Assembly: GCF_003634695.1 (NCBI RefSeq)
Contig: NZ_RBWV01000009.1
Location: 248,001 to 312,000 of the forward strand
From: Motilibacter peucedani
Lineage (GTDB): Bacteria > Actinomycetota > Actinomycetes > Motilibacterales > Motilibacteraceae
Direction of reading: 5' to 3'
DNA: 64,000 bases
Shown here: piece by piece, positions 2,375 through 33,293 of the stretch
How the letters are laid out: every line of letters begins with the position of its first letter
Position numbering within the stretch: the stretch's first letter is position 1
Notes under the pieces: model-generated
Seen by the model: the letters and a program-made list of their open reading frames with translations, nothing else
The model's database searches: none
Told to the model about the DNA's origin: nothing
Made by a program: the position numbers and the translations under genes

Positions 2375-3190
2375 CTAGCGGAGCAGGCTCAGCACTCCCT
2401 GGGAGGACTGGTTGGCCTGCGACAGCATCGACGTGCCCGCCTGCGACAGGATCTGGTTGCGGGTGAACTTCGTCATCTCCTCGGCCATGTCGGTGTCGCG
2501 GATCCGCGACTCCGACGCGGAGAGGTTCTCCGTCGCCACGTTGATGTTGTTGATCGCGTGCTCGAACCGGTTCTGGAACGCACCGAGCGTGGAACGGGTG
2601 CTCGACACGGTCGAGATCGCGGCGTCGATCGAGGCCAGCGCCGCCGAGGCGTTGTTGACCAGGTCGATCCCCGTGACCCCCAGGCCCGAGGCGCTCATGT
2701 CACCGACACCGGTGACGTCGATCGTCTCGCCGGCGTTCGCGCCGACCTGGAAGGTGCCCGAGAACGAGCCCGCGAGCAGCTGCTGCGAGCCGAACTTGGT
2801 GGTGCTCGAGATGCGGCTCAGCTCCGCGGAGAGCTGGGTCACCTCGGTGTTGGCGGCGGTACGGGCGCTCGAGTCCTGCGAACCGGTCGAGGACGCCTGC
2901 ACAGCCAGGTCACGCATGCGCTGCAGGATCGCGTGGCTCTCGCCCAGCGCACCTTCAGCGATCTGGACGACGCTGACGCCGTCCTGGGTGTTGCGGGCGG
3001 CGACCTTGAGGCCACCGATCTGCGAACGCAGGCCCTCGGAGATCGAGAGGCCGGCAGCGTCGTCCGCGGCGCGGTTGATGCGGAAGCCGCTCGACAGCTT
3101 CTCCAGCGACTTGCCCATCTGGCTGTCCGTCACGGAGAGGTTCCGGTAGGCGTTCATCGCCGCGACGTTGGTGTTGACGCGCAGTGCCAT
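2375..3190 (-). CDS. fliC: Flagellin 1
   Basis: A 271-residue flagellin. The N-terminal D0/D1 segment (MALRVNTNVAAMNAYRNLSV, with LEKLSSGFRINRAADDAAGL) and the C-terminal D1/D0 segment (FEHAINNINVATENLSASES, ending SQANQSSQGVLSLLR) are joined by only a short middle region. The surface D2/D3 domains of enterobacterial flagellin are therefore absent. It forms the extracellular filament. It is nearly identical to flagellin 2 (3412-4227) over both ends. Translation starts at the ATG preceded by AAGGAGG. Transcription is expected from the sigma-28-type promoter at 3248-3274, and the leader carries an ACGGA hairpin. Confidence 0.96.
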   Translation of the reverse strand: MALRVNTNVAAMNAYRNLSVTDSQMGKSLEKLSSGFRINRAADDAAGLSISEGLRSQIGGLKVAARNTQDGVSVVQIAEGALGESHAILQRMRDLAVQASSTGSQDSSARTAANTEVTQLSAELSRISSTTKFGSQQLLAGSFSGTFQVGANAGETIDVTGVGDMSASGLGVTGIDLVNNASAALASIDAAISTVSSTRSTLGAFQNRFEHAINNINVATENLSASESRIRDTDMAEEMTKFTRNQILSQAGTSMLSQANQSSQGVLSLLR

Positions 3191-3218: not shown

Positions 3219-3238
3219 CCGACCCATCCGTGGGCCGG
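3219..3238 (-). promoter_or_regulatory. Flagellin 1 leader hairpin, candidate CsrA site
   Basis: On the transcript CCGGCCC pairs with GGGUCGG (one G-U pair) around loop ACGGAU. It starts within a few bases of the predicted transcription start (about 3241) and lies 28 bases before the ATG. The Shine-Dalgarno AAGGAGGA holds a second ANGGA. The same structure, with compensating stem changes, precedes flagellins 2 and 3. Confidence 0.7.
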
Positions 3239-3247
3239 ACCCTCACC

Positions 3248-3274
3248 TCATCGACCCGGCCACCGGGCGTCTGA
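3248..3274 (-). promoter_or_regulatory. Sigma-28-type promoter of flagellin 1
   Basis: The -35 TCAG (3274-3271), a 15-base spacer and the -10 GTCGATGA (3255-3248) match the sigma-28 form TAAA-N15-GCCGATAA apart from the -35. The element recurs at seven other motility transcripts in this window. Confidence 0.8.
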
Positions 3275-3335
3275 AAGGCCGGCACTGCTGCAGACGGGTG
3301 GTCTCGGGCCCCCGCGCGGGCTCCGGGCAACGACG

Positions 3336-3369
3336 CGAAGGGCCCGCAGCAGCTGCTGCGGGCCCTTCG
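3336..3369 (-). terminator. Terminator of flagellin 2 (34-base perfect palindrome)
   Basis: A perfect 34-base palindrome with arms CGAAGGGCCCGCAGCAG lies 43 bases after the flagellin 2 stop. The GGGCCCGCAGC arm is shared with the terminators of flagellins 3 and 4. It separates flagellin 2 from the flagellin 1 promoter. Confidence 0.75.
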
Positions 3370-3411
3370 GGTGTCAGTCGTGCGTCCCCGCGCCGTCGCG
3401 GAGGACCACTA

Positions 3412-4227
3412 CTAGCGGAGCAGGCTCAGCACTCCCTGGGAGGACTGGTTGGCCTGCGACAGCATCGAGGTGCCGGCCTGGGAGAGGATCTGGTTGCGGG
3501 TGAACTTCGTCATCTCCTCGGCCATGTCGGTGTCGCGGATCCGCGACTCCGACGCGGAGAGGTTCTCCGTCGCCACGTTGATGTTGTTGATCGCGTGCTC
3601 GAACCGGTTCTGGAACGCACCGAGGGTCGAACGAGTGCTCGACACGGTCGAGATCGCGGCGTCGATCGAGGCCAGCGCCGCTGAGGCGTTGTTGACCAGG
3701 TCCACGCCGGTGACGCCGAGGCCGGAGGCGCTCATGTCGCCCACGCCGGTGACGTCGATCGTCTCGCCCTGGTTCGCGCCGACCTGGAAGGTGCCGGAGA
3801 ACGAGCCGTTGAGCAGCTGCTGCGAGCCGAACTTGGTGGTGCCCGCGATGCGGGTCAGCTCGGCGGAGAGCTGGGTCACCTCGGTGTTGGCGGCGGTACG
3901 GGCGCTCGAGTCCTGCGAGCCGGTCGAGGACGCCTGGACAGCCAGGTCACGCATGCGCTGGAGGATGGCGTGGCTCTCGGAGAGAGCACCTTCAGCGATC
4001 TGGACGACGCTGACGCCGTCCTGGGTGTTGCGGGCGGCGACCTTGAGGCCACCGATCTGCGAACGCAGGCCCTCGGAGATCGAGAGGCCGGCGGCGTCGT
4101 CCGCCGCGCGGTTGATGCGGAAGCCGCTCGACAGCTTCTCCAGCGACTTGCTCATCTGCCCGTCGGTGACCGAGAGGTTCCGGTAGGCGTTCATCGCCGC
4201 GACGTTGGTGTTGACGCGCAGTGCCAT
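3412..4227 (-). CDS. fliC: Flagellin 2
   Basis: A 271-residue flagellin starting MALRVNTNVAAMNAYRNLSV. It differs from flagellin 1 at only a handful of positions (for example GQMSKS for SQMGKS, LNGSFSG for LAGSFSG, and NQGETID for NAGETID). Both are compact, lacking D2/D3. The pair looks like a recent tandem duplication, since promoter, leader hairpin and ribosome site are also duplicated. ATG 4227 is chosen over an in-frame upstream codon at 4254 because it has AAGGAGG in front and matches all paralogues. It is a filament subunit exported through the flagellar type III apparatus. Confidence 0.95.
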   Translation of the reverse strand: MALRVNTNVAAMNAYRNLSVTDGQMSKSLEKLSSGFRINRAADDAAGLSISEGLRSQIGGLKVAARNTQDGVSVVQIAEGALSESHAILQRMRDLAVQASSTGSQDSSARTAANTEVTQLSAELTRIAGTTKFGSQQLLNGSFSGTFQVGANQGETIDVTGVGDMSASGLGVTGVDLVNNASAALASIDAAISTVSSTRSTLGAFQNRFEHAINNINVATENLSASESRIRDTDMAEEMTKFTRNQILSQAGTSMLSQANQSSQGVLSLLR

Positions 4228-4253
4228 GGCACTTCCTCCTTGAAAGTTGTTCA

Positions 4254-4273
4254 CCGGCCCGTCCGTGGGCCAG
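4254..4273 (-). promoter_or_regulatory. Flagellin 2 leader hairpin, candidate CsrA site
   Basis: CUGGCCC pairs with GGGCCGG (one U-G pair) around loop ACGGAC at the very 5' end of the predicted transcript. The downstream Shine-Dalgarno contains AAGGA. Relative to flagellin 1, two stem positions differ and pairing is kept. Confidence 0.7.
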
Positions 4274-4281
4274 CACTCCTC

Positions 4282-4308
4282 TCATCGGTGGAGCGTGCAG
4301 GCGGCTGA
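4282..4308 (-). promoter_or_regulatory. Sigma-28-type promoter of flagellin 2
   Basis: The -35 TCAG (4308-4305), a 15-base spacer and the -10 ACCGATGA (4289-4282). It is the same element as at the other motility operons, with the start expected about 7 bases downstream, at the foot of the leader hairpin. Confidence 0.78.
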
Positions 4309-4339
4309 GGAAAGCCCGCCACTCGTCCGGGTGAACCGC

Positions 4340-5185
4340 TCAGGCGACGGCGACCGGCGTGCGCTCGTCGGGACGGTGCGCAGTGCCCGCACCACGGCGT
4401 ACGCGGTGGCGCAGGGCGTCCCAGCCGGCCAGCAGCGCGAAGGTGAGCAGCAGCAGCACGACCGACACGGCACCGTCGGCCCAGTAGTGGTTGCCGGTCA
4501 CGACCACGACCGTGGCCATGGTCAGCGGGTGCAGCACGCTGAGGTAGCGGCGCCAGGTGCGGCCGAGGCGGATGAAGGTGACCGCGAACAGCACCGACCA
4601 GCCGACGTGGATGGAGGGCATGGCAGCGAGCTGGCTGATGGCGCCGAGCCCGCCGGCGTCGTAGACCGACTGGCCGAAGAGCGTCGGGGTGTCGACGACC
4701 AGGTGCCCGGGCAGCAGCCGCGGCGGCGCGACGGGCACGACCTGCACGGCCGTCGCCATCAGCGTGAACACGATGATGGTCAGCCGCAGGCGCGGGTAGG
4801 CGTCGCGGTGGCGCAGCCAGACCCACGCCAGCATCGCGATCAGCACGTTGAAGTGGCCGTAGATGTAGTAGGCGTTGGCGACCTGCGTCAGGTGGGGGTG
4901 GGGGAGCAGGTAGCTCTGCAGCCAGTCCTCGCCCGGCACGTGCAGCCGGCGCTCCCACTTCCAGATCGACTGCCCGCGCGAGATGGCGGCCGCGCGGTCG
5001 GTGAGCGTGTAGGCGCCGACCACGCCCCAGAGGCCGTAGAGCGTCACCATCAGCGCCGACTCGCGCAGCGCGAGCGAGGCGAAGCGCGCCCAGCGGGTGC
5101 GCGGCAGCATGAGCACCAGGCTGAGCGTGATGAGCACGAGCGCGATCTCGAGAGCGGTGTGCCACCCGAACGACAGGTGTGGCAT
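4340..5185 (-). CDS. PAP2-family membrane phosphatase / inositolphosphotransferase-like
   Basis: A 281-residue polytopic membrane protein with several hydrophobic segments. It carries the PAP2 signature in the IPC-synthase-like form: MPSIHVGW at 189-196 and GNHYWADG at 231-238, giving the catalytic histidines and aspartate. Such proteins dephosphorylate or transfer phospho-head groups on lipids at the cytoplasmic membrane. ATG 5185 is used because GAGGAGG sits just upstream and the hydrophobic N-terminus begins there; the longer in-frame reading has no such character. The substrate cannot be told from sequence. It diverges from the reductase-like gene at 5274. Confidence 0.8.
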   Translation of the reverse strand: MPHLSFGWHTALEIALVLITLSLVLMLPRTRWARFASLALRESALMVTLYGLWGVVGAYTLTDRAAAISRGQSIWKWERRLHVPGEDWLQSYLLPHPHLTQVANAYYIYGHFNVLIAMLAWVWLRHRDAYPRLRLTIIVFTLMATAVQVVPVAPPRLLPGHLVVDTPTLFGQSVYDAGGLGAISQLAAMPSIHVGWSVLFAVTFIRLGRTWRRYLSVLHPLTMATVVVVTGNHYWADGAVSVVLLLLTFALLAGWDALRHRVRRGAGTAHRPDERTPVAVA

Positions 5186-5273
5186 CCGACCTCCTCGAGC
5201 GCTGAGGCCGACCATGATGCCAGGCGCTCGCTGGAGTGCCGGTCGGAAGCGCCTGCCTGGTGGGAGGGCCTGC

Positions 5274-5834
5274 ATGGGCGAGATCGCGGTGCACGAGTTC
5301 ATCAGCCTCGACGGGGTCGTCGAGGACCCGCGGTGGACCTTCGAGTTCGGCTTCGACCCGGAGATGGGCGACACCCTCGCTGCGGTGACCTCGGCGTCGA
5401 ACGCGATCCTGCTCGGGCGCACGACGTTCGAGATGTTCGCCCCCGCCTGGTCGGGCCGCACGGCCGCCGACGACCCGGGCGCGCCCTTCTTCAACGACAC
5501 CCCGAAGTACGTCGTGGGGTCGCAGGCGCCGAGCGTCGAGTGGTCGCGGTCGACTCTGCTCGGTGCCTACGACCCGGCGCGGATCCAGGCGCTGAAGGAC
5601 GAGACCGAGGGCGGGATCTACGTCTCCGGCAGCCCCACGCTCGTGCGCGCCCTGCTGGCTGACGGGCTGGTCGACACCCTGCACCTGTTCGTCTACCCCG
5701 TGGCTCTGGGTCGGGGGCTGCGGCTGTGGCCCGAGGGCTCCGAGCGCACCCGGCTCGCGCTGCAGGCGCACGACTCCTACGACAACGGGATCGTCCACCT
5801 GGCCTACGGCCCGGCGGGCGACCCCGCTGCGTGA
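5274..5834 (+). CDS. Dihydrofolate reductase family protein (RibD C-terminal-like)
   Basis: A 186-residue protein of the RibD_C/DHFR-like family. The start is HEFISLDGVVEDP, then LLGRTTFEMFAP in the middle, GIYVSGSPTLVRALL (glycine-rich NADPH-binding turn) and DTLHLFVYPVALGRG near the end. Members are NADPH-dependent reductases of unclear substrate and rarely true folate enzymes. ATG 5274 follows GGGAGGG. A second, divergent family member lies at 15120-15764. Nothing links it to neighbouring genes. Confidence 0.85.
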   Translation: MGEIAVHEFISLDGVVEDPRWTFEFGFDPEMGDTLAAVTSASNAILLGRTTFEMFAPAWSGRTAADDPGAPFFNDTPKYVVGSQAPSVEWSRSTLLGAYDPARIQALKDETEGGIYVSGSPTLVRALLADGLVDTLHLFVYPVALGRGLRLWPEGSERTRLALQAHDSYDNGIVHLAYGPAGDPAA

Positions 5835-5866
5835 GGTCTCCCTGAGCCCGAGCAGGACCCCAGCGA

Positions 5867-6844
5867 CTAGCGCACGGCGGCCGGCTCGTCCTGCTCGTCA
5901 TGCTCGACCGCCGGCTCCTCGGGCCGGCGCAGGCTGAGCACGACCGAGGCGGTGAGGACGGTCACGATCACGCCGAGGCTGACCAGCGACGGGATCTCGG
6001 GCACCGAGGTGCTGACCGTCTTGTGCAGTGCCTGGAGCACCAGCTTGACGCCGATGAAGGCGAGGATCAGCGAGAGGCCCTTCGAGAGCAGGTGGAACCT
6101 CTCGAGCAGGCCGGCCAGCAGGAAGTACAGCGCCCGCAGGCCGAGGATGGCGAACGCGTTGCTCGAGTAGACGATGAATGCGTTGTCGCTGACGGCGAGC
6201 ACGGCGGGCACGCTGTCGACGGCGAAGACCAGGTCGGCGGCCTCGATCGCGACGACCACGGCGAGCAGCGGGGTGGCGACCCGGCGGCCGGCCTCCTTCA
6301 CGAAGAAGCGGGTGCCGTCGTAGTCCTCGCGGACGGGGACGACTTTGCGCAGCAGGCGTACGCCGAGGCTCGTGCTGGGGTCGAATGCCTCGTCGTCGTC
6401 CTTGAGCATCTTCCACGCGCTGTAGAGCAGCACGGCGGCGAAGACGAACAGCACCGCGGTGAACTTCTCGACGACGGCGACGCCGAGCATCAGGAAGATG
6501 CCACGGAAGACCAGTGCGCCGAGCACGCCGAAGAACAGGACCCGGTGCTGGTAGGCGCGCGGCACGGCGAAGTAGCCGAAGACCAGGGCGAAGACGAACA
6601 GGTTGTCTACCGACAGGCTCTTCTCGAGCAGCCAGGCCGTCGTGAAGTCGACGCCCGCGCCCGGGCCGACGACCACGGCGACGAGGACGGCGAAGGCGAG
6701 CGAGAGCCCGACCCAGACGGCGCTCCAGCGGGCGGCCTCCTTGAAGCCGATGACGTGCGGGCCGCGGTGGGCGACGAGGTCGACGACGAGGCCCGTCAGC
6801 ACCGTGCCTCCGAACACGAGCCAGAGCCAGAAGGGGACGTCCAC
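5867..6844 (-). CDS. TerC/Alx-family integral membrane protein
   Basis: About 325 residues with eight or nine hydrophobic segments. The TerC hallmarks are present: WLLEKSLSVDNLFVFALVF near the first acidic membrane motif and AADLVFAVDSVPAVLAVSDN in the second. The family includes tellurite-resistance TerC and manganese-linked Alx proteins; metal transport or metalation of exported proteins is the leading idea, not proven here. The GTG at 6844 is chosen because AGGAG lies six bases upstream and VPFWLWLVF starts the first helix. The charged tail (EEPAVEHDEQDEPAAV) is cytoplasmic in topology models. It stands alone as a transcription unit. Confidence 0.85.
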   Translation of the reverse strand: MDVPFWLWLVFGGTVLTGLVVDLVAHRGPHVIGFKEAARWSAVWVGLSLAFAVLVAVVVGPGAGVDFTTAWLLEKSLSVDNLFVFALVFGYFAVPRAYQHRVLFFGVLGALVFRGIFLMLGVAVVEKFTAVLFVFAAVLLYSAWKMLKDDDEAFDPSTSLGVRLLRKVVPVREDYDGTRFFVKEAGRRVATPLLAVVVAIEAADLVFAVDSVPAVLAVSDNAFIVYSSNAFAILGLRALYFLLAGLLERFHLLSKGLSLILAFIGVKLVLQALHKTVSTSVPEIPSLVSLGVIVTVLTASVVLSLRRPEEPAVEHDEQDEPAAVR

Positions 6845-6961
6845 GAGGTGCTCCTGCGAGAGGTGAGGGGGTGGTGCCTCAAGCCTCCCCTTGCCGAGTC
6901 CCCGCAGCCAGGGCTGCTGCCGGACGACATCCCGCCTTTTCTTGCCGGTCGTCGGCAACCG

Positions 6962-8116
6962 CTAGTCGCCGAGAGGCGCCTGCGGCCAGCCCAGCAGACG
7001 GGCACCGAGCGAGGCCGCGTGCAGAGCCAGCCGGTGCTCCGGGTCGGCCGGGTCGCGGCCCAGCAGCCGCTGCACGCGGGCCAGCCGGTAGGTCACCGCC
7101 CGCACCGAGAGGTGGAGCCGGCGCGCGGTCTCGGTCGCGACGGCTCCGGTGGCGTAGTAGGTGACCAGCGTCTCGAGGAGTTCGGCACCACCGCGTACGC
7201 CCTGCAGCGGGCCGAGCGTCGTCTCGATCAGCTCGGTGATCGCCGCGCGGTCGCGCAGCAGCACGCGGTAGACCGCGAGGTCGGCCGGGCGCACGACCGG
7301 CTGCTCGAGCCCGAGGCGCACCGCGAGCTCGAGCGCGTCGGCGGCGGAGTCGAACGAGACGCGTACGCCGCCGGCCCCCGCCAGCGCGCGCCCGACCGCG
7401 AGCTGCCAGCGCTGGCCGGCCGGTCCGGCGAGCAGCTGGGCGACCCGGTCGGAGACCTGCTCGACCGCTCGCTCGTCGGGTGCGGCGAACAGGCAGACCA
7501 GCCGGCCCTCGCGCACGGCGACCAGGGGCTGGGCGTCGCCGAGCCGGCCGGCGAGCGCGCGCTCGAGGCGGCCGACGACCGCGCCCGCGGCCTGTGCGGA
7601 CCCGGCGCCCGGGGCAGATGGAGCGGCGAGCAGCACCGCGTGCGGGCTCGTCAGGTCCAGCCCGATGTCGGCCGCCCGGGGCAGTGCGGCCGTGGCCGCC
7701 GCCCCGCCGGCGAGCAGCTCGTCCAAGACGTCGCGCCTCTCGACCTCCTCACGGCGCACGAGGTCGGCGCGCGCCAGCTGGAACCCCTCGGCCAGCGCGG
7801 CGACCCCGTCGTCGGCGGCCCGCAGCACCGCCAGTCCGGCGGCGCGCACCTGCTCGGCGCTGCCCTGCTGCACGACGTCGAGCTCGCCCCACAGCCGCCA
7901 GCTGGCCGAGAGGTAGAGGTCGACCAGCGCGCGCAGCGGCACCCCGGCGCGGGCGGCCTCCGCCCCGCGCTCGCCGTAGCGGTCGAGCTGGGCGCGCCGC
8001 AGCGTGCGACCCGACTGCGCCGCACCCACGACCGTGGGGAGGAAGTCGCCGAGCAGCGCCGGGTCGAGCCCGCCCGCGTCGTCGGCCGCGCCGCGGGCCA
8101 CGGCGTCGAGGTCCAT
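6962..8116 (-). CDS. PucR/CdaR-type transcriptional regulator
   Basis: 384 residues. The N-terminal half is an alpha-helical RsbRD/GGDEF-like sensor region. The C-terminus (TARRLHLSVRAVTYRLARVQ) is the PucR helix-turn-helix in which a recognition helix reads 'VRAVTYRLARV'. The family controls purine, sugar-acid or amino-acid genes; no ligand can be inferred here. It is transcribed away from flagellin 3, whose terminator lies between the flagellin stop and this gene's start. A start at ATG 8116 fits the family length. Confidence 0.82.
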   Translation of the reverse strand: MDLDAVARGAADDAGGLDPALLGDFLPTVVGAAQSGRTLRRAQLDRYGERGAEAARAGVPLRALVDLYLSASWRLWGELDVVQQGSAEQVRAAGLAVLRAADDGVAALAEGFQLARADLVRREEVERRDVLDELLAGGAAATAALPRAADIGLDLTSPHAVLLAAPSAPGAGSAQAAGAVVGRLERALAGRLGDAQPLVAVREGRLVCLFAAPDERAVEQVSDRVAQLLAGPAGQRWQLAVGRALAGAGGVRVSFDSAADALELAVRLGLEQPVVRPADLAVYRVLLRDRAAITELIETTLGPLQGVRGGAELLETLVTYYATGAVATETARRLHLSVRAVTYRLARVQRLLGRDPADPEHRLALHAASLGARLLGWPQAPLGD

Positions 8117-8158
8117 CCGGGCACGCTACCGGTGCGGCTGCGCACCCGCGCCGGACGC

Positions 8159-8196
8159 ACGAAGGGCCCGCAGCGTCGTCGCTGCGGGCCCTTCGT
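8159..8196 (-). terminator. Terminator of flagellin 3
   Basis: A 17-base-pair perfect stem (arms begin ACGAAGGGCCCGCAGCG) with a TCGT loop, 21 bases after the flagellin 3 stop. The arm is the same GAAGGGCCCGCAGC found after flagellin 2. Confidence 0.8.
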
Positions 8197-8217
8197 CGCC
8201 GTGCTGCTGGAGCAGGG

Positions 8218-9033
8218 CTACTTGAGCAGGCTCAGCACTCCCTGGGAGGACTGGTTGGCCTGCGACAGCATCGAGGTGCCGGCCTGGGAGAGGATCTGGT
8301 TCCTGGTGAACTTGGTCATCTCCTCGGCCATGTCGGTGTCGCGGATCCGCGACTCCGACGCCGAGAGGTTCTCGACGGACACGTTGATGTTGTTGATCGC
8401 GTGCTCGAAGCGGTTCTGGAACGCACCGAGCGTCGACCGGGTGCTCGACACGGTCGAGATGGCCGTGTCGATCGAGGCCAGCGCCGCCGAGGCGCTGCCC
8501 ACCAGGTCCAGCCCGGTGACGCCGAGGCCGGAGGCGCTCATGTCACCGATGCTGTTGACGTCGATGGTCTCGCCGGCGTTGGCGCCGACCTGGAACGTCC
8601 CGGTGAACGAGCCGTTCAGCAGCTGCTGCGAGCCGAACTTCGTGGTGCTGGAGATGCGGGTCAGCTCGGCCGTGAGCTGCTGCACCTCGGTGTTGGCGGC
8701 GGTGCGGGCACTGCTGTCCTGCGAGCCGGTCGAGGACGCCTGCACGGCCAGGTCGCGCATGCGCTGGAGGATGGCGTGGCTCTCCGAGAGCGCGCCTTCA
8801 GCGATCTGCACGACGGACACGCCGTCCTGGGCGTTGCGGGATGCGACCTTGAGACCTCCGATCTGCGACCGGAGCCCCTCTGAGATCGAGAGACCGGCCG
8901 CGTCGTCCGCGGCCCGGTTGATCCGGAATCCGCTCGACAGCTTCTCCAACGACTTCGACATCTGGCCGTCCGTCACCGTGAGGTTCCGGTAGGCGTTCAT
9001 CGCAGCGATGTTGGTGTTGACGCGCAGTGCCAT
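8218..9033 (-). CDS. fliC: Flagellin 3
   Basis: A 271-residue compact flagellin starting MALRVNTNIAAMNAYRNLTV. It keeps the invariant D0/D1 ends but carries its own middle (AGETIDVNSIGDMSASGLGV, LDLVGSASAALASID) and ends VLSLLK rather than LLR. It stands alone between a PucR regulator and arr, away from the flagellin 1/2 pair, and has its own sigma-28-type promoter, ACGGA leader hairpin and terminator. ATG 9033 has ACGGAGG upstream; the longer in-frame reading would include the leader. It is a filament subunit, possibly used in a different part of the filament. Confidence 0.95.
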   Translation of the reverse strand: MALRVNTNIAAMNAYRNLTVTDGQMSKSLEKLSSGFRINRAADDAAGLSISEGLRSQIGGLKVASRNAQDGVSVVQIAEGALSESHAILQRMRDLAVQASSTGSQDSSARTAANTEVQQLTAELTRISSTTKFGSQQLLNGSFTGTFQVGANAGETIDVNSIGDMSASGLGVTGLDLVGSASAALASIDTAISTVSSTRSTLGAFQNRFEHAINNINVSVENLSASESRIRDTDMAEEMTKFTRNQILSQAGTSMLSQANQSSQGVLSLLK

Positions 9034-9060
9034 GAGAATTTCCTCCGTGAAGACCTGTTC

Positions 9061-9080
9061 CCGGCCCGTCCGTGGGCCAG
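9061..9080 (-). promoter_or_regulatory. Flagellin 3 leader hairpin, candidate CsrA site
   Basis: The same stem and loop as flagellin 2: CUGGCCC / ACGGAC / GGGCCGG. The Shine-Dalgarno region reads ACGGAGGA, which is itself an ANGGA site, giving two spaced sites as in the Bacillus hag leader. Confidence 0.7.
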
Positions 9081-16184: not shown

Positions 16185-16232
16185 GGGGTCGCGACGGGTC
16201 CGGCTCTGCCGCAGCCCGTCGGGCGGGTGGTG

Positions 16233-17048
16233 CTACTTGAGCAGGCTGAGGACGCCCTGGGAGGACTGGTTGGCCTGCGACAGCATCGAGGTGCCGGCCT
16301 GGGACAGGATCTGCGACCGCGTGAACTTGGTCATCTCCTCGGCCATGTCGGTGTCGCGGATGCGCGACTCCGAGGCGGAGAGGTTCTCGACCGAGACGTT
16401 GATGTTGTTGATCGCGTGCTCGAAGCGGTTCTGGAACGCACCGAGGGTGGAGCGGGTCGCGGAGACCTGCGAGACGGCTGCGTCGATCGAGGCCAGCGCC
16501 GAGGAGGCGTTGTTGACCAGGTCGAGCCCGGTGACGCCGAGCCCCGAGGCGCTCATGTCGCCGACGGTGCTGATCGTGATGGTCTCGCCGGCGTTGGCGC
16601 CGATCTGGAAGGTGCCGCTGAACGAGCCGCTCAGCAGGGGCTGCGAGCCGAACTTCGTGGCGGTCGCGATGCGGCTGAGCTCCGCGGTCAGCTGCTGGAC
16701 CTCGGTGTCGGCGGCGGTGCGGGCGCTGGAGTCCTGCGAACCGGTCGAGGAGGCCTGGACGGCCAGGTCGCGCATGCGCTGCAGGATCGCGTGGGTCTCG
16801 GTCAGGGCGCCTTCAGCGACCTGCACGACGCTGACGCCGTCCTGGGCGTTGCGGGCGGCGACCTTGAGGCCACCGATCTGCGAACGCAGGCCCTCGGAGA
16901 TCGAGAGACCGGCCGCGTCGTCGGCGGCCCGGTTGATCCGGAAGCCGCTCGACAGCTTCTCCAGCGACTTCGACATCTGCCCGTCCGTCACCGACAGGTT
17001 CCGGTAGGCGTTCATCGCCGCAATGTTCTGGTTGACACGCAGTGCCAT
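16233..17048 (-). CDS. fliC: Flagellin 4 (most divergent)
   Basis: A 271-residue compact flagellin. Unlike the others it has MALRVNQNIAAMNAYRNLSV, ALTETHAILQRMRDLA, RIATATKFGSQPLLSGSFSG, AGETITISTVGDMSASG and SQVSATRSTLGAFQ, and it ends LLK. Its leader lacks the ACGGA hairpin of the other three and its ribosome site is GAGGAAGG rather than ANGGA-containing. It has a sigma-28-type promoter and a terminator of its own. It is directly followed upstream by the glycan island. It may be a minor or differently timed subunit. Confidence 0.95.
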   Translation of the reverse strand: MALRVNQNIAAMNAYRNLSVTDGQMSKSLEKLSSGFRINRAADDAAGLSISEGLRSQIGGLKVAARNAQDGVSVVQVAEGALTETHAILQRMRDLAVQASSTGSQDSSARTAADTEVQQLTAELSRIATATKFGSQPLLSGSFSGTFQIGANAGETITISTVGDMSASGLGVTGLDLVNNASSALASIDAAVSQVSATRSTLGAFQNRFEHAINNINVSVENLSASESRIRDTDMAEEMTKFTRSQILSQAGTSMLSQANQSSQGVLSLLK

Positions 17049-17174: not shown

Positions 17175-19322
17175 TCAGGCGGCGAGCAGCTGTGCCGCCA
17201 CGCGCGGCGCGACCGTGCGCAGCTCGGCGCCCACGGCGTCGGCCTCGGCGTCGGGGATGAGCTCCGCGGCAGCGACGAGGTCCGGCATGGTGCGGTCGTC
17301 GCCGAACGCCTCGATCACCAGCGCCGCGGCCAGGACCCGGTCGCGGGGGGAGCGGCCGGTGTCGCGGGCGAGCGCGACGAGCGCGCAGTCCGAGACGCCG
17401 GCCCCGCGCAGCCGGGCCGCCCACTCGAGCGCCCGGAGGACGGTGAGCCGGGGCGCCACCACGGTGGCGGCGGCCAGCACGGCGCTGCGGGCGCGACCGG
17501 CGCGCCACATCGCCTCGAGCAGCGCGTCGGCACGCTCGGGGCGCACCCAGCGGCTCTCGGCGAGGGTCAGCATCACCATCGAGTCGTGGAGCGCCGCGAC
17601 GTAGGCGTCGAGCGCGGCGGGCTCGGCCTCGAACAGCGCGAGCACGCGCTCGAGCGAGATGTTCATCGAGCCCGTACGCACGACCTCCACCACCCGCCAC
17701 GCCGCCTCGGGCGCGCGGCCGAGGCGCGAGAGCGCCGCGATCTCGAAGGTCAGGGCGCCGTCGCGGCGCACGACCCGGTTGTTCTCGTCCTTGCCCTCGA
17801 CCGGCATCCGCGAGACGACGTCGAGCACGTCCTCGTAGCGGCCCTCGGCGAGCAGGACCTCGGCGGCGATCTCGTAGGAGCCGACGGGGTCGGTCATCGA
17901 CGCGGTCAGCTTGTCGAGCCACTCGTGCGCCACGTCGAAGCGGCCGAGCGACGCGGCGGCGACCGCCGCGGCGTGGCACAGCTCGCGCCAGTTGATCGGG
18001 GGGAAGCTCTCGCCCTCGGCCAGGGCGGCGGTCCGCAGCACGCCCTCGTTGTCGCCGGCGAAGCGCTGCGAGCGGGCGAGGTTCGCCAGGGCCGTGCCCT
18101 TGGTGAGCCCCTCCGGCACGGCGTCGGCCAGGCCCAGCGAGGCGAGACGCAGGTTGCGCCCGGCCTTGTCGCGCTCCTCGGTGCGCGCGGCGAGGTAGCC
18201 GGAGTGCACGAGCGTGACGCCGCGGAGGGCGCCCTGGACGGGGCCGCGGCCCTCCCGGTGGAGGACCTCCTCGTGCAGGCGGCCGGCGAACCAGCCCTCG
18301 TCGCGGCGGGCGAGCCGGCGCACGAGACCGGTCTGCGGCGTGCCCATGCCGTTGCCGGTGATGTTCTCGACGTCGATGGCCAGCGCCTCGGTGGTGGCCT
18401 CCTGCAGCGCGCGCCGGAAGAGCGCCACGTCGCCGACCTCGAGGACCTCGTCGGCGTCGACCTGGAGGTGCCAGTCGCCGAACGCGTGCGAGAGGGCCCG
18501 GTTGCGGGCGTCGCCGAAGTGCTCGTCCCAGTAGCCGAGCACGACGCGCGCGCCCGCGGCGCGCGCGATCTCGACCGTGCGGTCGGTGGAGCCGGTGTCG
18601 TAGACGACGACCTCGTCGGCGACGCCCTCGAGCGCCGCCAGGGAGGACGGGAGCAGCTCCTCCTCGTCCTTGACGATGTAGACGGCGCTGAGCAGCGGCG
18701 CGCGGCGCGGCGCGAGACCGCACCCGCGCGTACCCCTGTGGTGCCAGACGCTGTCGGCCACGACCGTGAGCGTCCCGACGGCGCCCAGGCGCTCGCCGAG
18801 GCCCGGCAGCCCGCCGTCGGCGAGCAGCGCGTCGGTGCGCACGGCGATGACGCCCTCGCCCAGGGCGGGGACCGTACGCGTCTCGCCCCGGTGCTCGTCG
18901 CGCCAGACCCGCGCCCAGTCGCGCAGGGCCTGCGGGCTGGCCAGCGCCTTGACCGGCGCGGTCACGCACTGGCGCCCGACGCCGAGGTCGTGCAGCGGGC
19001 CTGCGGCGACTGACCCGGCGGCGACGGCGACGACCAGCGGGTCGATCGCGTGCGAGGGGGGCAGGCAGTCGGCGCACACCAGGACGGTGACGGCGTGCTT
19101 CGCGCGCCGAGCGCCGGAGAGCCGGCGGGCCGCGAGGTCCTGGGCGTCGTCGAGGCGGGCGGCAGCGATCTCGCTCATCCCGGGCTCGCCGTCGGCGACG
19201 ACGACCAGCTCGTCGCGCACGCCGAGCGACGGGCGCAGCGCCCGGGCCAGGAAGTCGGCACGGGCGCGACCCTCCGGGCCGTGCTGGGCGACGACGACGA
19301 CCGATGCGGGAGAGCGCTTCAT
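17175..19322 (-). CDS. Large GT2 glycosyltransferase with helical-repeat C-terminus
   Basis: 715 residues. Residues 1-205 resemble a degenerate nucleotide-sugar domain. Residues 210-330 are a GT2 domain (SAVYIVKDEEELLPSSLAAL, VVVYDTGSTDRTVEIA, FGDWHLQVDADEVLE, with the acidic VDADE as DxD-like metal site). From about 370 on it is all helices of TPR type (KAGRNLRLASLGLADAV, GSYEIAAEVLLAEGRYEDVL). This plan is common among flagellin or cell-surface glycan transferases that recognise polypeptides. No membrane segment. It is probably cytoplasmic and acts on flagellin or a lipid-linked glycan. A possible sigma-28-like promoter abuts the ATG. Confidence 0.8.
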   Translation of the reverse strand: MKRSPASVVVVAQHGPEGRARADFLARALRPSLGVRDELVVVADGEPGMSEIAAARLDDAQDLAARRLSGARRAKHAVTVLVCADCLPPSHAIDPLVVAVAAGSVAAGPLHDLGVGRQCVTAPVKALASPQALRDWARVWRDEHRGETRTVPALGEGVIAVRTDALLADGGLPGLGERLGAVGTLTVVADSVWHHRGTRGCGLAPRRAPLLSAVYIVKDEEELLPSSLAALEGVADEVVVYDTGSTDRTVEIARAAGARVVLGYWDEHFGDARNRALSHAFGDWHLQVDADEVLEVGDVALFRRALQEATTEALAIDVENITGNGMGTPQTGLVRRLARRDEGWFAGRLHEEVLHREGRGPVQGALRGVTLVHSGYLAARTEERDKAGRNLRLASLGLADAVPEGLTKGTALANLARSQRFAGDNEGVLRTAALAEGESFPPINWRELCHAAAVAAASLGRFDVAHEWLDKLTASMTDPVGSYEIAAEVLLAEGRYEDVLDVVSRMPVEGKDENNRVVRRDGALTFEIAALSRLGRAPEAAWRVVEVVRTGSMNISLERVLALFEAEPAALDAYVAALHDSMVMLTLAESRWVRPERADALLEAMWRAGRARSAVLAAATVVAPRLTVLRALEWAARLRGAGVSDCALVALARDTGRSPRDRVLAAALVIEAFGDDRTMPDLVAAAELIPDAEADAVGAELRTVAPRVAAQLLAA

Positions 19323-19467: not shown

Positions 19468-21408
19468 ATGGCCAAGAGCTCCCTCCTCACGGTGTGCGTC
19501 GTGCTGCCGCCGTCGCCGACCCCGTCCCCGGCGCTCCAGCAGGTCAAGCGCCACGCGAAGCGGCTGGCCCGCGGCCGCGTGCGCGTCCTGCTGGTCGAGC
19601 CGGTCGTCGACGCGGTCGCGGCCGCCGAGTGCCCCAGCGCCCCCGGCGTGTGGAGGGTGCCGCTGCCCTACGACTCGGGCGCGCTGCCGGCCTACGGCGA
19701 CACGCTGTTCGAGACCGCGCTCGCCGAGCTGTTGCTGCGCGAGCAGGCCGACGTGGTGCACCTGCACTGGAGCGGCGCGACGACCGTCGTGCCGGCGGTC
19801 GAGCGCTGCTGGCTCGTCGGTGTGCCGGCGATCGTCTCGATCCACGACGACTGGGCGCCCGCGGCCGACGCACCTGCGCTCACGAGCCCCGTGCAGGTCG
19901 TGCGCCAGATGCTGACGATGGCCTCGCTGGTCTGCTCCCCCGACCCGGCCACGGCGCAGCGCGCGAGCGTCGCGAACTGGGCCCCGGACGTGCGCCACCT
20001 CTCGCACGCCAGCGGCAGCGCGCCGCGCTGGGAGGACGCCTACCGCGAGCTCGCCGCGCTCGACGAGGACCACTCGCGCGACCGCACGACCCTCAGCGCG
20101 GTCGTCACGACCTACCAGCGCAACGAGGAGCTCGCGGCCTGCCTCGACTCCCTCGTGGCGCAGACGCTGCCGCGCGAGCGCTTCGAGGTCGTCGTCATCG
20201 ACGACTGCAGCGAGCCGAGCGCGGAGCCGGTCGTACGCGGCTACGAGGACCGCCTCGACGTGACCTACGTGCGCATGGAGCGCAACGTCGGCATCGGCGA
20301 GGCCCGCAACGCGGGCATCGACGCCAGCCGCAACGACGTCCTCGCGTTCCTCGACGACGACGACGTGCTCGCGCCGCGCTACCTCGAGGAGCTGCTCGCG
20401 ACCTACGACGACGGCACGGGCGAGGTCGACGCCGTGCTGGCGTGGACCGGCGCCAGCCCGCGCGCGGCCGCTAGCCCCGCCGGCGTGATGGCCTTCCGCG
20501 GCGGGCTCTACATGAACTACACCTCGTTCCACGAGGGCCAGGACCTCGAGTGGGGCTTCTGGTGGGGCGGGCGCTGCAGCATCCGGCGCACCCGGCTCGG
20601 CGAGCACCGCTTCAACGTGCGCTTCTGCGAGGACACCGAGCTCGCCTACCGGATCACGCAGGACGAGACGCTCACCGTGCGCCACACCCGGCGCGCCGTG
20701 CAGCGCGTCGACCAGGGCCTCGAGCCGATGACCCTCGTGCGCCGCCACGGCCGGCTCGGCCAGGCGCAGGCCCAGCTGGCCGAGCTGCACCCGCAGCTGG
20801 TCGAGAACCACCCGTGGTTCCAGGACAGCACCCGGGTGCGCGCGCTGCAGTCCGGCCTGCCGCTGCGCCCGGCGATGAACGCGCGCATCGCTACCGACGT
20901 GACCGCGACGCTCGAGCTGCCGGCCCTGCGCGCCTGCGCGTCGGGTGCCACGAGCCTGCTCGACCTGGTGGGCCACAGCTACGGGATGCTCGGCTCGGTC
21001 GAGAACGGCCTCGGCTGGTTCGCCGCCCGTCGCGCCGCCCAGGCCCGCGCCGACGGCCGCCGCCTGCGGCTGGGCATCGACGTCGCCTCCCCCCTCCTGC
21101 CGGCGTTCCTCGACTGGGCGCGCACCGCTCCCGACGAGGCGTTCCCCGAGCTCGTCCTCGCGGTTCCCGGCCCGGGCGCCCGCGCGGCCTACGACACGGT
21201 GCGCGCGCTCGCCCAGGAGAAGGGCGGCACCGCGCGGCTGACGATGGAGCGCGGCGCGGCCTTCTGGGCCGGCGTCGACGCCGTGCTCGACCACCGCGCC
21301 CCCGAGGGCTGGACCATCGCCGACGGCCTCCCGCTGCCGCGCGGCCCCCTCGACGAGGCCCTGAACCGCCTGTTCCTGACCGACAGCCTGCTGGGGAGCT
21401 TCCGATGA
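19468..21408 (+). CDS. Two-domain glycosyltransferase (GT-B-like head, GT2 core)
   Basis: 646 residues. Residues 1-200 look like the N-terminal half of a GT4/GT-B enzyme (ADVVHLHWSGATTVVPAVER, PAIVSIHDDWAPAADAP). Residues 207-420 are a GT2 domain with TTLSAVVTTYQRNEELAACL, VVVIDDCSEPSAEPVV, ERNVGIGEARNAGIDASRND and the metal-binding stretch VLAFLDDDDVLAPRYLEELL; FCEDTELAYRI supplies the later acidic motif. The remainder is a helical tail. It is divergent from the 17175 GT2 gene and followed by a four-base-overlapping small gene. The likely role is glycosylation of flagellin or a surface polymer. Confidence 0.82.
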   Translation: MAKSSLLTVCVVLPPSPTPSPALQQVKRHAKRLARGRVRVLLVEPVVDAVAAAECPSAPGVWRVPLPYDSGALPAYGDTLFETALAELLLREQADVVHLHWSGATTVVPAVERCWLVGVPAIVSIHDDWAPAADAPALTSPVQVVRQMLTMASLVCSPDPATAQRASVANWAPDVRHLSHASGSAPRWEDAYRELAALDEDHSRDRTTLSAVVTTYQRNEELAACLDSLVAQTLPRERFEVVVIDDCSEPSAEPVVRGYEDRLDVTYVRMERNVGIGEARNAGIDASRNDVLAFLDDDDVLAPRYLEELLATYDDGTGEVDAVLAWTGASPRAAASPAGVMAFRGGLYMNYTSFHEGQDLEWGFWWGGRCSIRRTRLGEHRFNVRFCEDTELAYRITQDETLTVRHTRRAVQRVDQGLEPMTLVRRHGRLGQAQAQLAELHPQLVENHPWFQDSTRVRALQSGLPLRPAMNARIATDVTATLELPALRACASGATSLLDLVGHSYGMLGSVENGLGWFAARRAAQARADGRRLRLGIDVASPLLPAFLDWARTAPDEAFPELVLAVPGPGARAAYDTVRALAQEKGGTARLTMERGAAFWAGVDAVLDHRAPEGWTIADGLPLPRGPLDEALNRLFLTDSLLGSFR

Positions 21409-28555: not shown

Positions 28556-29434
28556 TCAGGCGGACGCCACCCGTGCGTACGCGGTGCTCGCGTAGGAGGG
28601 CACCTGCGCCGAGAGGCGGGTGCGGTAGTCGCCGCGGGCGGCGACCTCGGCGAAGTACGCCTCGCGGCGGCGCGCGGCGCAGCCGTTCGGGCGCTCGTGC
28701 TGGGTCACGAGCGAGGGCTCGAGCTGGGCGTTGAGGCCGTCCTTGAGCAGGGCGAGCGCCTCGGCGCGCATCTGGGAGACGCGCGACTCGCTGACGCCGA
28801 GCTCGGTGGCGATCTCGAGCATGGGGCGCTCCTCGAAGAAGTAGCGCAGGACGACCGTCTTGAGCCGGTCGGGGAGCACCTCGACGGCGTCGTAGAGGTA
28901 GCCGACCTTCTCGCGGTGCAGCACGACCTCGTCGGGGGCCGGCTCGTGCACGGCGACGACCTCGTCGAGGCTGCCGGAGTCGGAGAAGCCCTGGAGGCTC
29001 AGCACGACCGCGCGCTGCACGTCCTCCTCGACCGCGCCGATCTCCTCGGGCGCCACGCCCAGGTGGTCGGCGACCTCCTGCAGCGTCGGCGTGCGGCCGA
29101 GCAGCGCGGTGAGCTGCTCCTCGGCGACGTCGCGCTTGCGGGCCCGGGACCGCACCGAGCGGCTCGCCCAGTCGTAGCTGCGCAGCTCGTCGATCAGCGC
29201 GCCGCGGATGCGGGTGCTGGCGAAGCGGCCGAACGGCACGCCGCGCGAGTCGTCGTAGGAGCGGGCGGCCTGCGCCAGGGCGGCGAGGCCGGCCGAGGTG
29301 AGCTCGTCGCGGCTCACGTGTGCGGGGAGCCGGCCGATGAGCTCGTTGACGAGGTAGCCCACGAGCGGCAGGTTCTCCCGGCAGAGCTCGTCCTCGCGGC
29401 GGGTGGAGGATCGAGGCTGCGTCAGTGCGGTCAT
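28556..29434 (-). CDS. fliA: FliA/WhiG-type RNA polymerase sigma factor (sigma-28)
   Basis: 292 residues. Region 2 (ENLPLVGYLVNELIGRLPAH, GVPFGRFASTRIRGALIDEL, RSYDWASRSVR), region 3 (LGRTPTLQEVADHLGV) and region 4 (LPDRLKTVVLRYFFEERPML, ELGVSESRVSQMRAEALALL) are those of the FliA/SigD/WhiG class. After region 4 there is an unusual tail of about 50 residues (HERPNGCAARRREAYFAEVA) not seen in the short family members. It should direct transcription from the eight TCAR-N15-GYCGAT promoters listed here. No FlgM anti-sigma gene is in the window. ATG 29434 fits MTALTQPRSS. Confidence 0.92.
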   Translation of the reverse strand: MTALTQPRSSTRREDELCRENLPLVGYLVNELIGRLPAHVSRDELTSAGLAALAQAARSYDDSRGVPFGRFASTRIRGALIDELRSYDWASRSVRSRARKRDVAEEQLTALLGRTPTLQEVADHLGVAPEEIGAVEEDVQRAVVLSLQGFSDSGSLDEVVAVHEPAPDEVVLHREKVGYLYDAVEVLPDRLKTVVLRYFFEERPMLEIATELGVSESRVSQMRAEALALLKDGLNAQLEPSLVTQHERPNGCAARRREAYFAEVAARGDYRTRLSAQVPSYASTAYARVASA

Positions 29435-32560: not shown

Positions 32561-32971
32561 ATGACCTCCGTTCCCACGCTCGAGGCGAGCACCGAGCCGG
32601 TCCTGCGCTTCGAGACGGGCCTGCCCGGCTTCCCCGACGCGCGCGAGTTCCTGCTCGTGCGCCTCGACGACGCGGGCACGGTCTTCTCGCTGCGCTCGGC
32701 CGAGGACGCCGGGCTGCGCTTCCTCGCGGTGCCGCCGGCGACGTTCTTCCCCGACTACTCCCCCGAGATCCCCGACGACGCGGTCGACGAGCTCGACCTG
32801 CGTGACGCCTCCGAGGCGCTGGTCCTGCTGCTGGTGACCTGCCAGACCGGGCTCGCCGACGCCACCGCCAACCTGATGGCGCCGGTGGTCGTCAACTCGC
32901 GCACGCACGCCGCCGCCCAGGTCGTGCTGGCCGGATCCGACCTCCCGCTCCGCGCGCCGCTGCAGTCCTGA
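32561..32971 (+). CDS. fliW: Flagellar assembly factor FliW
   Basis: 136 residues from ATG 32561 (a GTG at 32525 would add 12). FliW signature: PVLRFETGLPGFPDAREFLL, FLAVPPATFFPDYSPEIPDD, LLLVTCQTGLADATANLMAP and VVVNSRTHAAAQVVLAGSDL. FliW binds both cytoplasmic flagellin and CsrA, releasing CsrA's block on flagellin translation when flagellin is scarce. It lies between flgL and csrA, as in Bacillus subtilis. No ribosome site is evident for either start. Four flagellin targets are in the window. Confidence 0.93.
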   Translation: MTSVPTLEASTEPVLRFETGLPGFPDAREFLLVRLDDAGTVFSLRSAEDAGLRFLAVPPATFFPDYSPEIPDDAVDELDLRDASEALVLLLVTCQTGLADATANLMAPVVVNSRTHAAAQVVLAGSDLPLRAPLQS

Positions 32972-33035: not shown

Positions 33036-33293
33036 GTGCTCGTCCTGAGCCGCCGCGCCGGCGAGAGCGTCGTCATCGGTCACGACGTGACCATCACCGT
33101 GCTCGAGGTCCGTGGCGACCTCGTCCGCATCGGGATCGACGCCCCGCGCAGCGTGCAGGTCCACCGCGAGGAGGTCTACAAGGAGCTCCAGGAGGCCAAC
33201 CGCGTCGCGGCCCAGGCCCCCGAGGACGCCGTCGCCGCCCTCACCGCCCAGCTGACCGGCCGGGCCGCCCCGCCTCCCGCAGACGCGCGATGA
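33036..33293 (+). CDS. csrA: Carbon storage regulator CsrA
   Basis: 85 residues from GTG 33036 (GAGGAGGG upstream): MLVLSRRAGESVVIGHDVTI, then VRIGIDAPRSVQVHREEVYK, the RNA-binding strands and helix with the conserved L4/R6 and R44 region. CsrA dimers bind ANGGA in hairpin loops and at Shine-Dalgarno sites. The C-terminal tail (APPPADAR) extends beyond the usual 61-75 residues. Its natural targets are the flagellin leaders described here. A possible own -10 (TAGACT) lies at about 32988-32993, otherwise it is transcribed with fliW. Confidence 0.95.
   Translation: MLVLSRRAGESVVIGHDVTITVLEVRGDLVRIGIDAPRSVQVHREEVYKELQEANRVAAQAPEDAVAALTAQLTGRAAPPPADAR

Follow-up and report, generated by a model that had tools for sequence, protein, structure and literature searches.

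ANGGA-loop hairpins in flagellin leaders suggest CsrA-FliW control of three flagellin paralogues in Motilibacter peucedani and recur across flagellated actinobacteria

The window analyzed here, a stretch of 64,000 nucleotides (nt) of Motilibacter peucedani (positions 248,001-312,000 of contig NZ_RBWV01000009.1, assembly GCF_003634695.1), carries four flagellin genes, adjacent fliW and csrA genes, and a gene for a FliA/WhiG-family sigma factor (Table 1). This work concerns the mRNA leaders of the flagellins, three of which contain a hairpin with the CsrA-type motif ANGGA in its loop and a second ANGGA in the Shine-Dalgarno sequence (SD).

Flagellins 1-3 share a hallmark of Bacillus subtilis hag-type leaders, i.e., ANGGA in the loop of a 5'-leader hairpin. 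In each of them a hexaloop is presented on a stem of 7-9 base pairs (bp), 39-41 nt upstream of the start codon, and the leader folds give stem pairing probabilities of 0.9-1.0 with the loop GGA unpaired. The second ANGGA overlaps the SD, 25-27 nt downstream of the first. A first-pass annotation of this DNA had placed ACGGA-loop hairpins before three of the four flagellins and an AAGGA or ACGGA within each of their SDs; sequence and fold bear out the hairpins, positions included, and the SD motifs are likewise confirmed. When the 4.19-Mb genome was scanned with a motif model trained on 66 rows, the three window hairpins, themselves among those rows, were as a set the three top matches. Over the leaders, Rfam returned no family at its gathering score; for leader 1 alone, the lowest E-value belonged to RsmV (E 0.5; 9.6 bits versus a gathering score of 100) and is not significant. 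Whole-leader folding z-scores of -1.0 to -1.7 are not decisive in such G+C-rich sequence and do not prove the hairpins by themselves. The annotation had also read stem differences with retained pairing as a sign of preserved structure. Pairing is indeed kept, but all differences among the three copies except that in the outermost pair are one-sided (G-C to G-U, C-G to U-G), so that the window alone barely shows covariation and outside data are needed, which the relatives described below supply. The strong evidence for the hairpins is comparative, not energetic.

Table 1. Flagellin leaders, flagellin genes, and related regulatory genes in the window (positions counted from the first nucleotide of the window)
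Feature	Position	Strand	Description and evidence
Leader hairpin of flagellin 1, predicted CsrA site 1	3238-3219	minus	CCGGCCC[ACGGAU]GGGUCGG, loop 3231-3226; sequence, fold, covariation in relatives, top genome-wide model match
Leader hairpin of flagellin 2, predicted CsrA site 1	4273-4254	minus	CUGGCCC[ACGGAC]GGGCCGG, loop 4266-4261; sequence, fold, genome-wide model match
Leader hairpin of flagellin 3, predicted CsrA site 1	9080-9061	minus	CUGGCCC[ACGGAC]GGGCCGG, loop 9073-9068; sequence, fold, genome-wide model match
AAGGA overlapping SD of flagellin 1, predicted CsrA site 2	3204-3200	minus	sequence; A enrichment in flagellin SDs
AAGGA overlapping SD of flagellin 2, predicted CsrA site 2	4241-4237	minus	sequence; A enrichment in flagellin SDs
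ACGGA overlapping SD of flagellin 3, predicted CsrA site 2	9048-9044	minus	sequence; A enrichment in flagellin SDs
Flagellin 1	2375..3190	minus	271 amino acids (aa); PF00669 143 bits, PF00700 105.9 bits
Flagellin 2	3412..4227	minus	271 aa, 97% identical to flagellin 1; domain match, tree
Flagellin 3	8218..9033	minus	271 aa; domain match, tree
Flagellin 4	16230..17048	minus	271 aa, ~90% identical to flagellin 3; sequence, tree
FliW, predicted CsrA antagonist and flagellin sensor	32561..32971	plus	PF02623 112.7 bits; match to 5DMB chain A
CsrA	33036..33293	plus	85 aa with C-terminal extension; PF02599 89.7 bits; TIGR00202 above cut-off; best PDB match B. subtilis CsrA 1T3O
Sigma-28-like promoter of flagellin 1	3248..3275	minus	TCAG ... 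TCGAT; sequence, leader alignment
FliA/WhiG-family sigma factor	28556..29434	minus	TIGR02479 175 bits, best family, below cut-off 189.6

The order Motilibacterales is represented by five genomes in three genera. A sister species of the same genus (G001) encodes five tandem flagellins, and each of their leaders carries an ANGGA-loop hairpin (ACGGAC in three, AGGGAA and AUGGAA in the others). Relative to the window, stem positions have been re-paired, among them G-C to A-U and G-C to C-G. When the eight leaders of the two species are aligned together, pairing holds in 95.3% of cells, four pairs have changed on both sides, and the covariation score is 0.491 versus 0.271 in shuffles; slid registers reach at most 55% pairing. 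One sister leader (G001_3838) has an A-A mismatch in the stem. Loop and pairing have persisted while the flanking leader sequence diverged between the species. Two further genomes of the same family (G002 and G004) have FliW, CsrA, and weaker Flagellin_N matches resembling FlgL; no clear flagellin was found in these two, perhaps through an assembly gap or a divergent flagellin.

The signal extends across the phylum. Named relatives and 396 surveyed Actinomycetota genomes supplied the leaders. Of 111 actinobacterial flagellin leaders, a few of them from loci whose affiliation is uncertain (L017 and L044, for example), 75 contain an ANGGA-loop hairpin that reaches a fixed strength, compared with a mean of 1.9 and a maximum of 6 in dinucleotide shuffles. 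Permuted cores gave no more than 18 such hairpins, and TNGGA, CNGGA, and GNGGA gave 0, 7, and 0. In 71 leaders that have a single ANGGA before the SD and were chosen on the motif alone, not on pairing, pairing at the hexaloop register was 0.59-0.87 across eight positions. Among 66 distinct leaders, mostly from Actinomycetota, 72.5% of cells are paired (43.3% in shuffles, 23-44% in slid registers), the covariation score is 0.613 versus 0.185 in shuffles, and all eight pairs show double changes. The comparison for which the first-pass annotation had called, of leaders across related genomes, thus yields an invariant loop and a covarying stem both in the sister species and across Actinomycetota.

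Since SDs often contain AGGA, an ANGGA in the SD is weak evidence by itself. An A two bases before the SD GGA occurs in 103 of 116 flagellin SDs versus 56 of 109 control SDs (Fisher p 7e-10), the controls being rough, i.e., long open reading frames with an SD-like stretch from which flagellins were not removed. The A is retained even where a C or T follows it, a base that makes for a weaker SD. In some lineages (e.g., L107 and L130), the ANGGA of the SD is likewise presented in a hairpin loop, as described for stem-loop SL2 of Campylobacter jejuni flaA (PMC4894983).

Among the 396 surveyed genomes, 59 bear flagellin, of which 57 have CsrA and 56 have FliW. With both proteins nearly always present, the phylum offers little contrast for an association with CsrA. 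One genome in which flagellin and CsrA occur with no detected FliW (G334) carries no hairpin. CsrA also occurs in 16 surveyed genomes with no detected flagellin or FliW, several of them in one family (f36). The contrast was found in Lactobacillales. The first three non-actinobacterial genomes lacking CsrA and FliW (two of Enterococcus and that of Ligilactobacillus ruminis) showed no hairpin, and CsrA was not found in any of 33 flagellated Lactobacillales genomes searched. None of 30 CsrA-less Lactobacillales leaders has an ANGGA-loop hairpin, versus 25 of 42 leaders of other Firmicutes (p 2e-8); the SD ANGGA is present in 8 of 30 and 38 of 41 leaders, respectively. That the leader site should be missing in genomes without CsrA is a prediction of the model rather than a feature defined in the literature; it is borne out here, probably through few independent losses.

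The two regulatory proteins are as the first-pass annotation had named them, each with a clear domain match. CsrA is encoded by a single copy in the genome. Its alignment with B. subtilis CsrA (1T3O) reaches query residue 72 and runs through the C-terminal extension, which is the part bound by FliW (PMC7652899). FliW and CsrA each match a partner in the solved FliW-CsrA complex 5DMB, chains A and D, respectively. Homology to these known partners suggests that the window FliW would bind both CsrA and flagellin.

Sigma-28-like boxes accompany all four flagellin genes. Besides the promoter of flagellin 1, similar CGAT boxes lie at 4287, 9094, and 17111; they are placed 60-63 nt upstream of all four flagellin starts and are common to the nine leaders of both Motilibacter species in the alignment. 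The FliA/WhiG-family sigma factor likely reads these promoters. Given the boxes and this sigma factor, the mRNA is predicted to start at or just before the hairpin, which would thus probably stand at the very 5' end.

Flagellin 4 departs from this pattern. Its leader has the sigma-28-like promoter but neither an ANGGA hairpin nor an ANGGA in the SD, and the loop position reads CCGGCC. The most similar leader is that of sister-species flagellin G001_3838, which keeps its ANGGA-loop hairpin, consistent with loss of both putative sites from flagellin 4. Large proteins with glycosyltransferase family 2 domains are encoded beside this gene (17175-19322, minus strand; 19468-21408, plus strand) and possibly serve flagellin glycosylation. 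In a protein tree, the four window flagellins group together (clade support 100/97); the copies cluster by species, four from the window and five from the sister, while the leaders stayed distinct. This clustering suggests recent duplication or gene conversion.

Two other hairpins were considered. Beyond the end of flagellin 1 (minus strand, ~2328-2289), a perfectly paired 14-bp hairpin whose loop reads ACGGAC was a candidate for a further CsrA site, but the sister species has a terminator-like hairpin without loop GGA at the matching place, and we therefore take it as a terminator with a chance loop. In the sister species, an ACGGAG-loop hairpin precedes csrA by 37 nt (L181 minus strand 11419; G001:C1:706405-706426). 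It suggested csrA autoregulation, but in the window csrA leader the hairpin at that place has the loop CCACC and the other csrA leaders examined had no such hairpin, which leaves only a lead. In a genome-wide search with the hairpin model for other CsrA targets, hits besides the flagellin leaders and the sister csrA leader had E-values no better than ~0.5, and none was convincingly placed in a leader.

From the sites, their structure, conservation, and covariation, the genes present, and the association with CsrA, we infer CsrA binding of the three leaders, repression, relief by FliW, and escape of flagellin 4. The three leaders are very probably CsrA-repressible and of the B. subtilis hag type, placing three paralogues under Hag-FliW-CsrA homeostasis. 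A CsrA dimer would bind the ACGGAY loop of the 5'-end hairpin and the ANGGA inside the SD, bridging or occupying both and so blocking ribosome binding. Free FliW would bind CsrA and release the mRNA, and cytoplasmic flagellin would bind FliW, so that flagellin that cannot be exported would turn off its own synthesis. One FliW-CsrA pair would govern three near-identical flagellins together, and flagellin 4, with both sites lost, should escape the CsrA loop. The partner switch with three co-regulated flagellins proposed by the first-pass annotation thus gains support, at the level of sequence, from loop and stem in relatives, from the association with CsrA, and from the matches to 1T3O and 5DMB. 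We also entertain, as a doubtful extension, that the ANGGA-hexaloop hairpin is one ancient element predating the split of Actinobacteria and Firmicutes, its structure kept while nearly all of its sequence turned over, and that within it flagellin 4 escaped CsrA and is made outside the homeostasis loop.

Several observations weigh against CsrA control of these leaders. About one-third of actinobacterial leaders fail the hairpin criterion despite near-universal CsrA and FliW (e.g., Mobiluncus porci, L021). A Frankiales metagenome-assembled genome (G402), possibly incomplete, has hairpins without detected CsrA or FliW. In a Modestobacter genome (G400), hairpin and CsrA occur with no detected FliW, none being found near csrA by tblastn. 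The Lactobacillales contrast is perhaps a single loss event, comes from A+T-richer leaders (28% GC versus 39% in other Firmicutes), and rests, as to the absence of FliW, on three of the genomes. CsrA hairpins selected by systematic evolution of ligands by exponential enrichment have mostly no more than 4 pairs (PMC7652899), and the 7- to 9-bp G+C-rich stem found here is stiffer. Flagellins 1-3 are recent duplicates, and their mutual similarity is therefore weak evidence.

The last point has its own extreme form, in which the hairpins are alike only through recent flagellin duplication and have no selected function. The single clade of window flagellins and the 97% identity of flagellins 1 and 2 invite this reading. 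It is scarcely credible, because loop and pairing persist with different stems in the sister species and across the phylum while the flanking leader sequence has diverged; the sister, phylum-wide, and Firmicutes comparisons already contradict it. A stable stem near the predicted 5' end might instead be a terminal stabilizer that slows the decay of abundant flagellin transcripts, with an incidental ANGGA in its loop. We consider this very unlikely, since a stabilizer does not need GGA, ANGGA loops greatly outnumber those with permuted or substituted cores, and the leaders of CsrA-less Lactobacillales lack the hairpin; CsrA binding could still add stabilization or destabilization on top. Equally improbable is that CsrA binds the leaders under the control of, e.g., a small RNA or growth state instead of FliW, with no partner switch. 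The Modestobacter genome agrees with this possibility, as do the 16 genomes with CsrA but without flagellin or FliW, where CsrA must have other roles. FliW, however, adjoins CsrA in the window and occurs in nearly all flagellin-bearing genomes, and the window CsrA carries the extension to which FliW is bound in the solved complex (PMC7652899).

Repression by CsrA under FliW control, our preferred reading, builds on a known circuit. The findings are of value for the covariation, for the CsrA contrast, and for one flagellin that lost its sites. They offer a test that needs only sequence, the hairpin being expected with CsrA and not in its absence, and a genome with three flagellins that have the sites and one that lacks them provides a natural comparison for whether CsrA escape gives filaments of mixed composition.

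The B. subtilis hag leader and the Hag-FliW-CsrA partner switch were reportedly described by Yakhnin in 2007 and Mukherjee in 2011. Both the B. subtilis mechanism (PMC7652899, PMC6529632), with its two-site leader, and the broad distribution of FliW with CsrA, which takes in Actinobacteria, are already published (PMC7652899, PMC6529632, PMC4682653). Nor is CsrA control of an actinobacterial flagellin a new idea: the 2008 Kineococcus radiotolerans genome paper proposed it from an SD match to hag BS2 (PMC2587704), and in the accessible part of that paper the proposal concerns the SD site alone; neither an upstream hairpin nor FliW enters into it, nor does evidence from covariation or comparison. 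The open-access literature searched, which omits most subscription papers, yielded no account of the upstream hairpin for Actinobacteria. What is new is a hairpin signal conserved through flagellated actinobacteria and absent from the examined leaders of CsrA-less lactic acid bacteria; the circuit itself is known from Bacillus. Within that literature, the findings carry the structural signature of CsrA-FliW flagellin control beyond Bacillus and Campylobacter into a phylum for which it had been no more than a guess.

As in hag, the Motilibacter leaders have two CsrA-type sites, one overlapping the SD, together with adjacent fliW and csrA genes and a CsrA with an extended C terminus. Unlike in B. 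subtilis, three flagellin mRNAs would answer to one FliW-CsrA pair and a fourth lacks the sites, the stem is G+C-rich, and fliW-csrA lies ~24-30 kb from the three flagellins. C. jejuni flaA (PMC4894983, Dugar 2016) likewise has ANGGA in a hairpin loop and at the ribosome-binding site, with compensatory changes among relatives and antagonism of CsrA by FliW, but both of its ANGGA sites are in hairpin loops and its mRNA also titrates CsrA. In Treponema denticola, according to the portion of the report available (PMC9481697), hairpins are not mentioned and the flagella are the periplasmic ones of spirochaetes; as in Motilibacter, several flagellins (flaB1, flaB2) have CsrA sites near the SD, and a fliW-csrA pair lies in the flagellar cluster.

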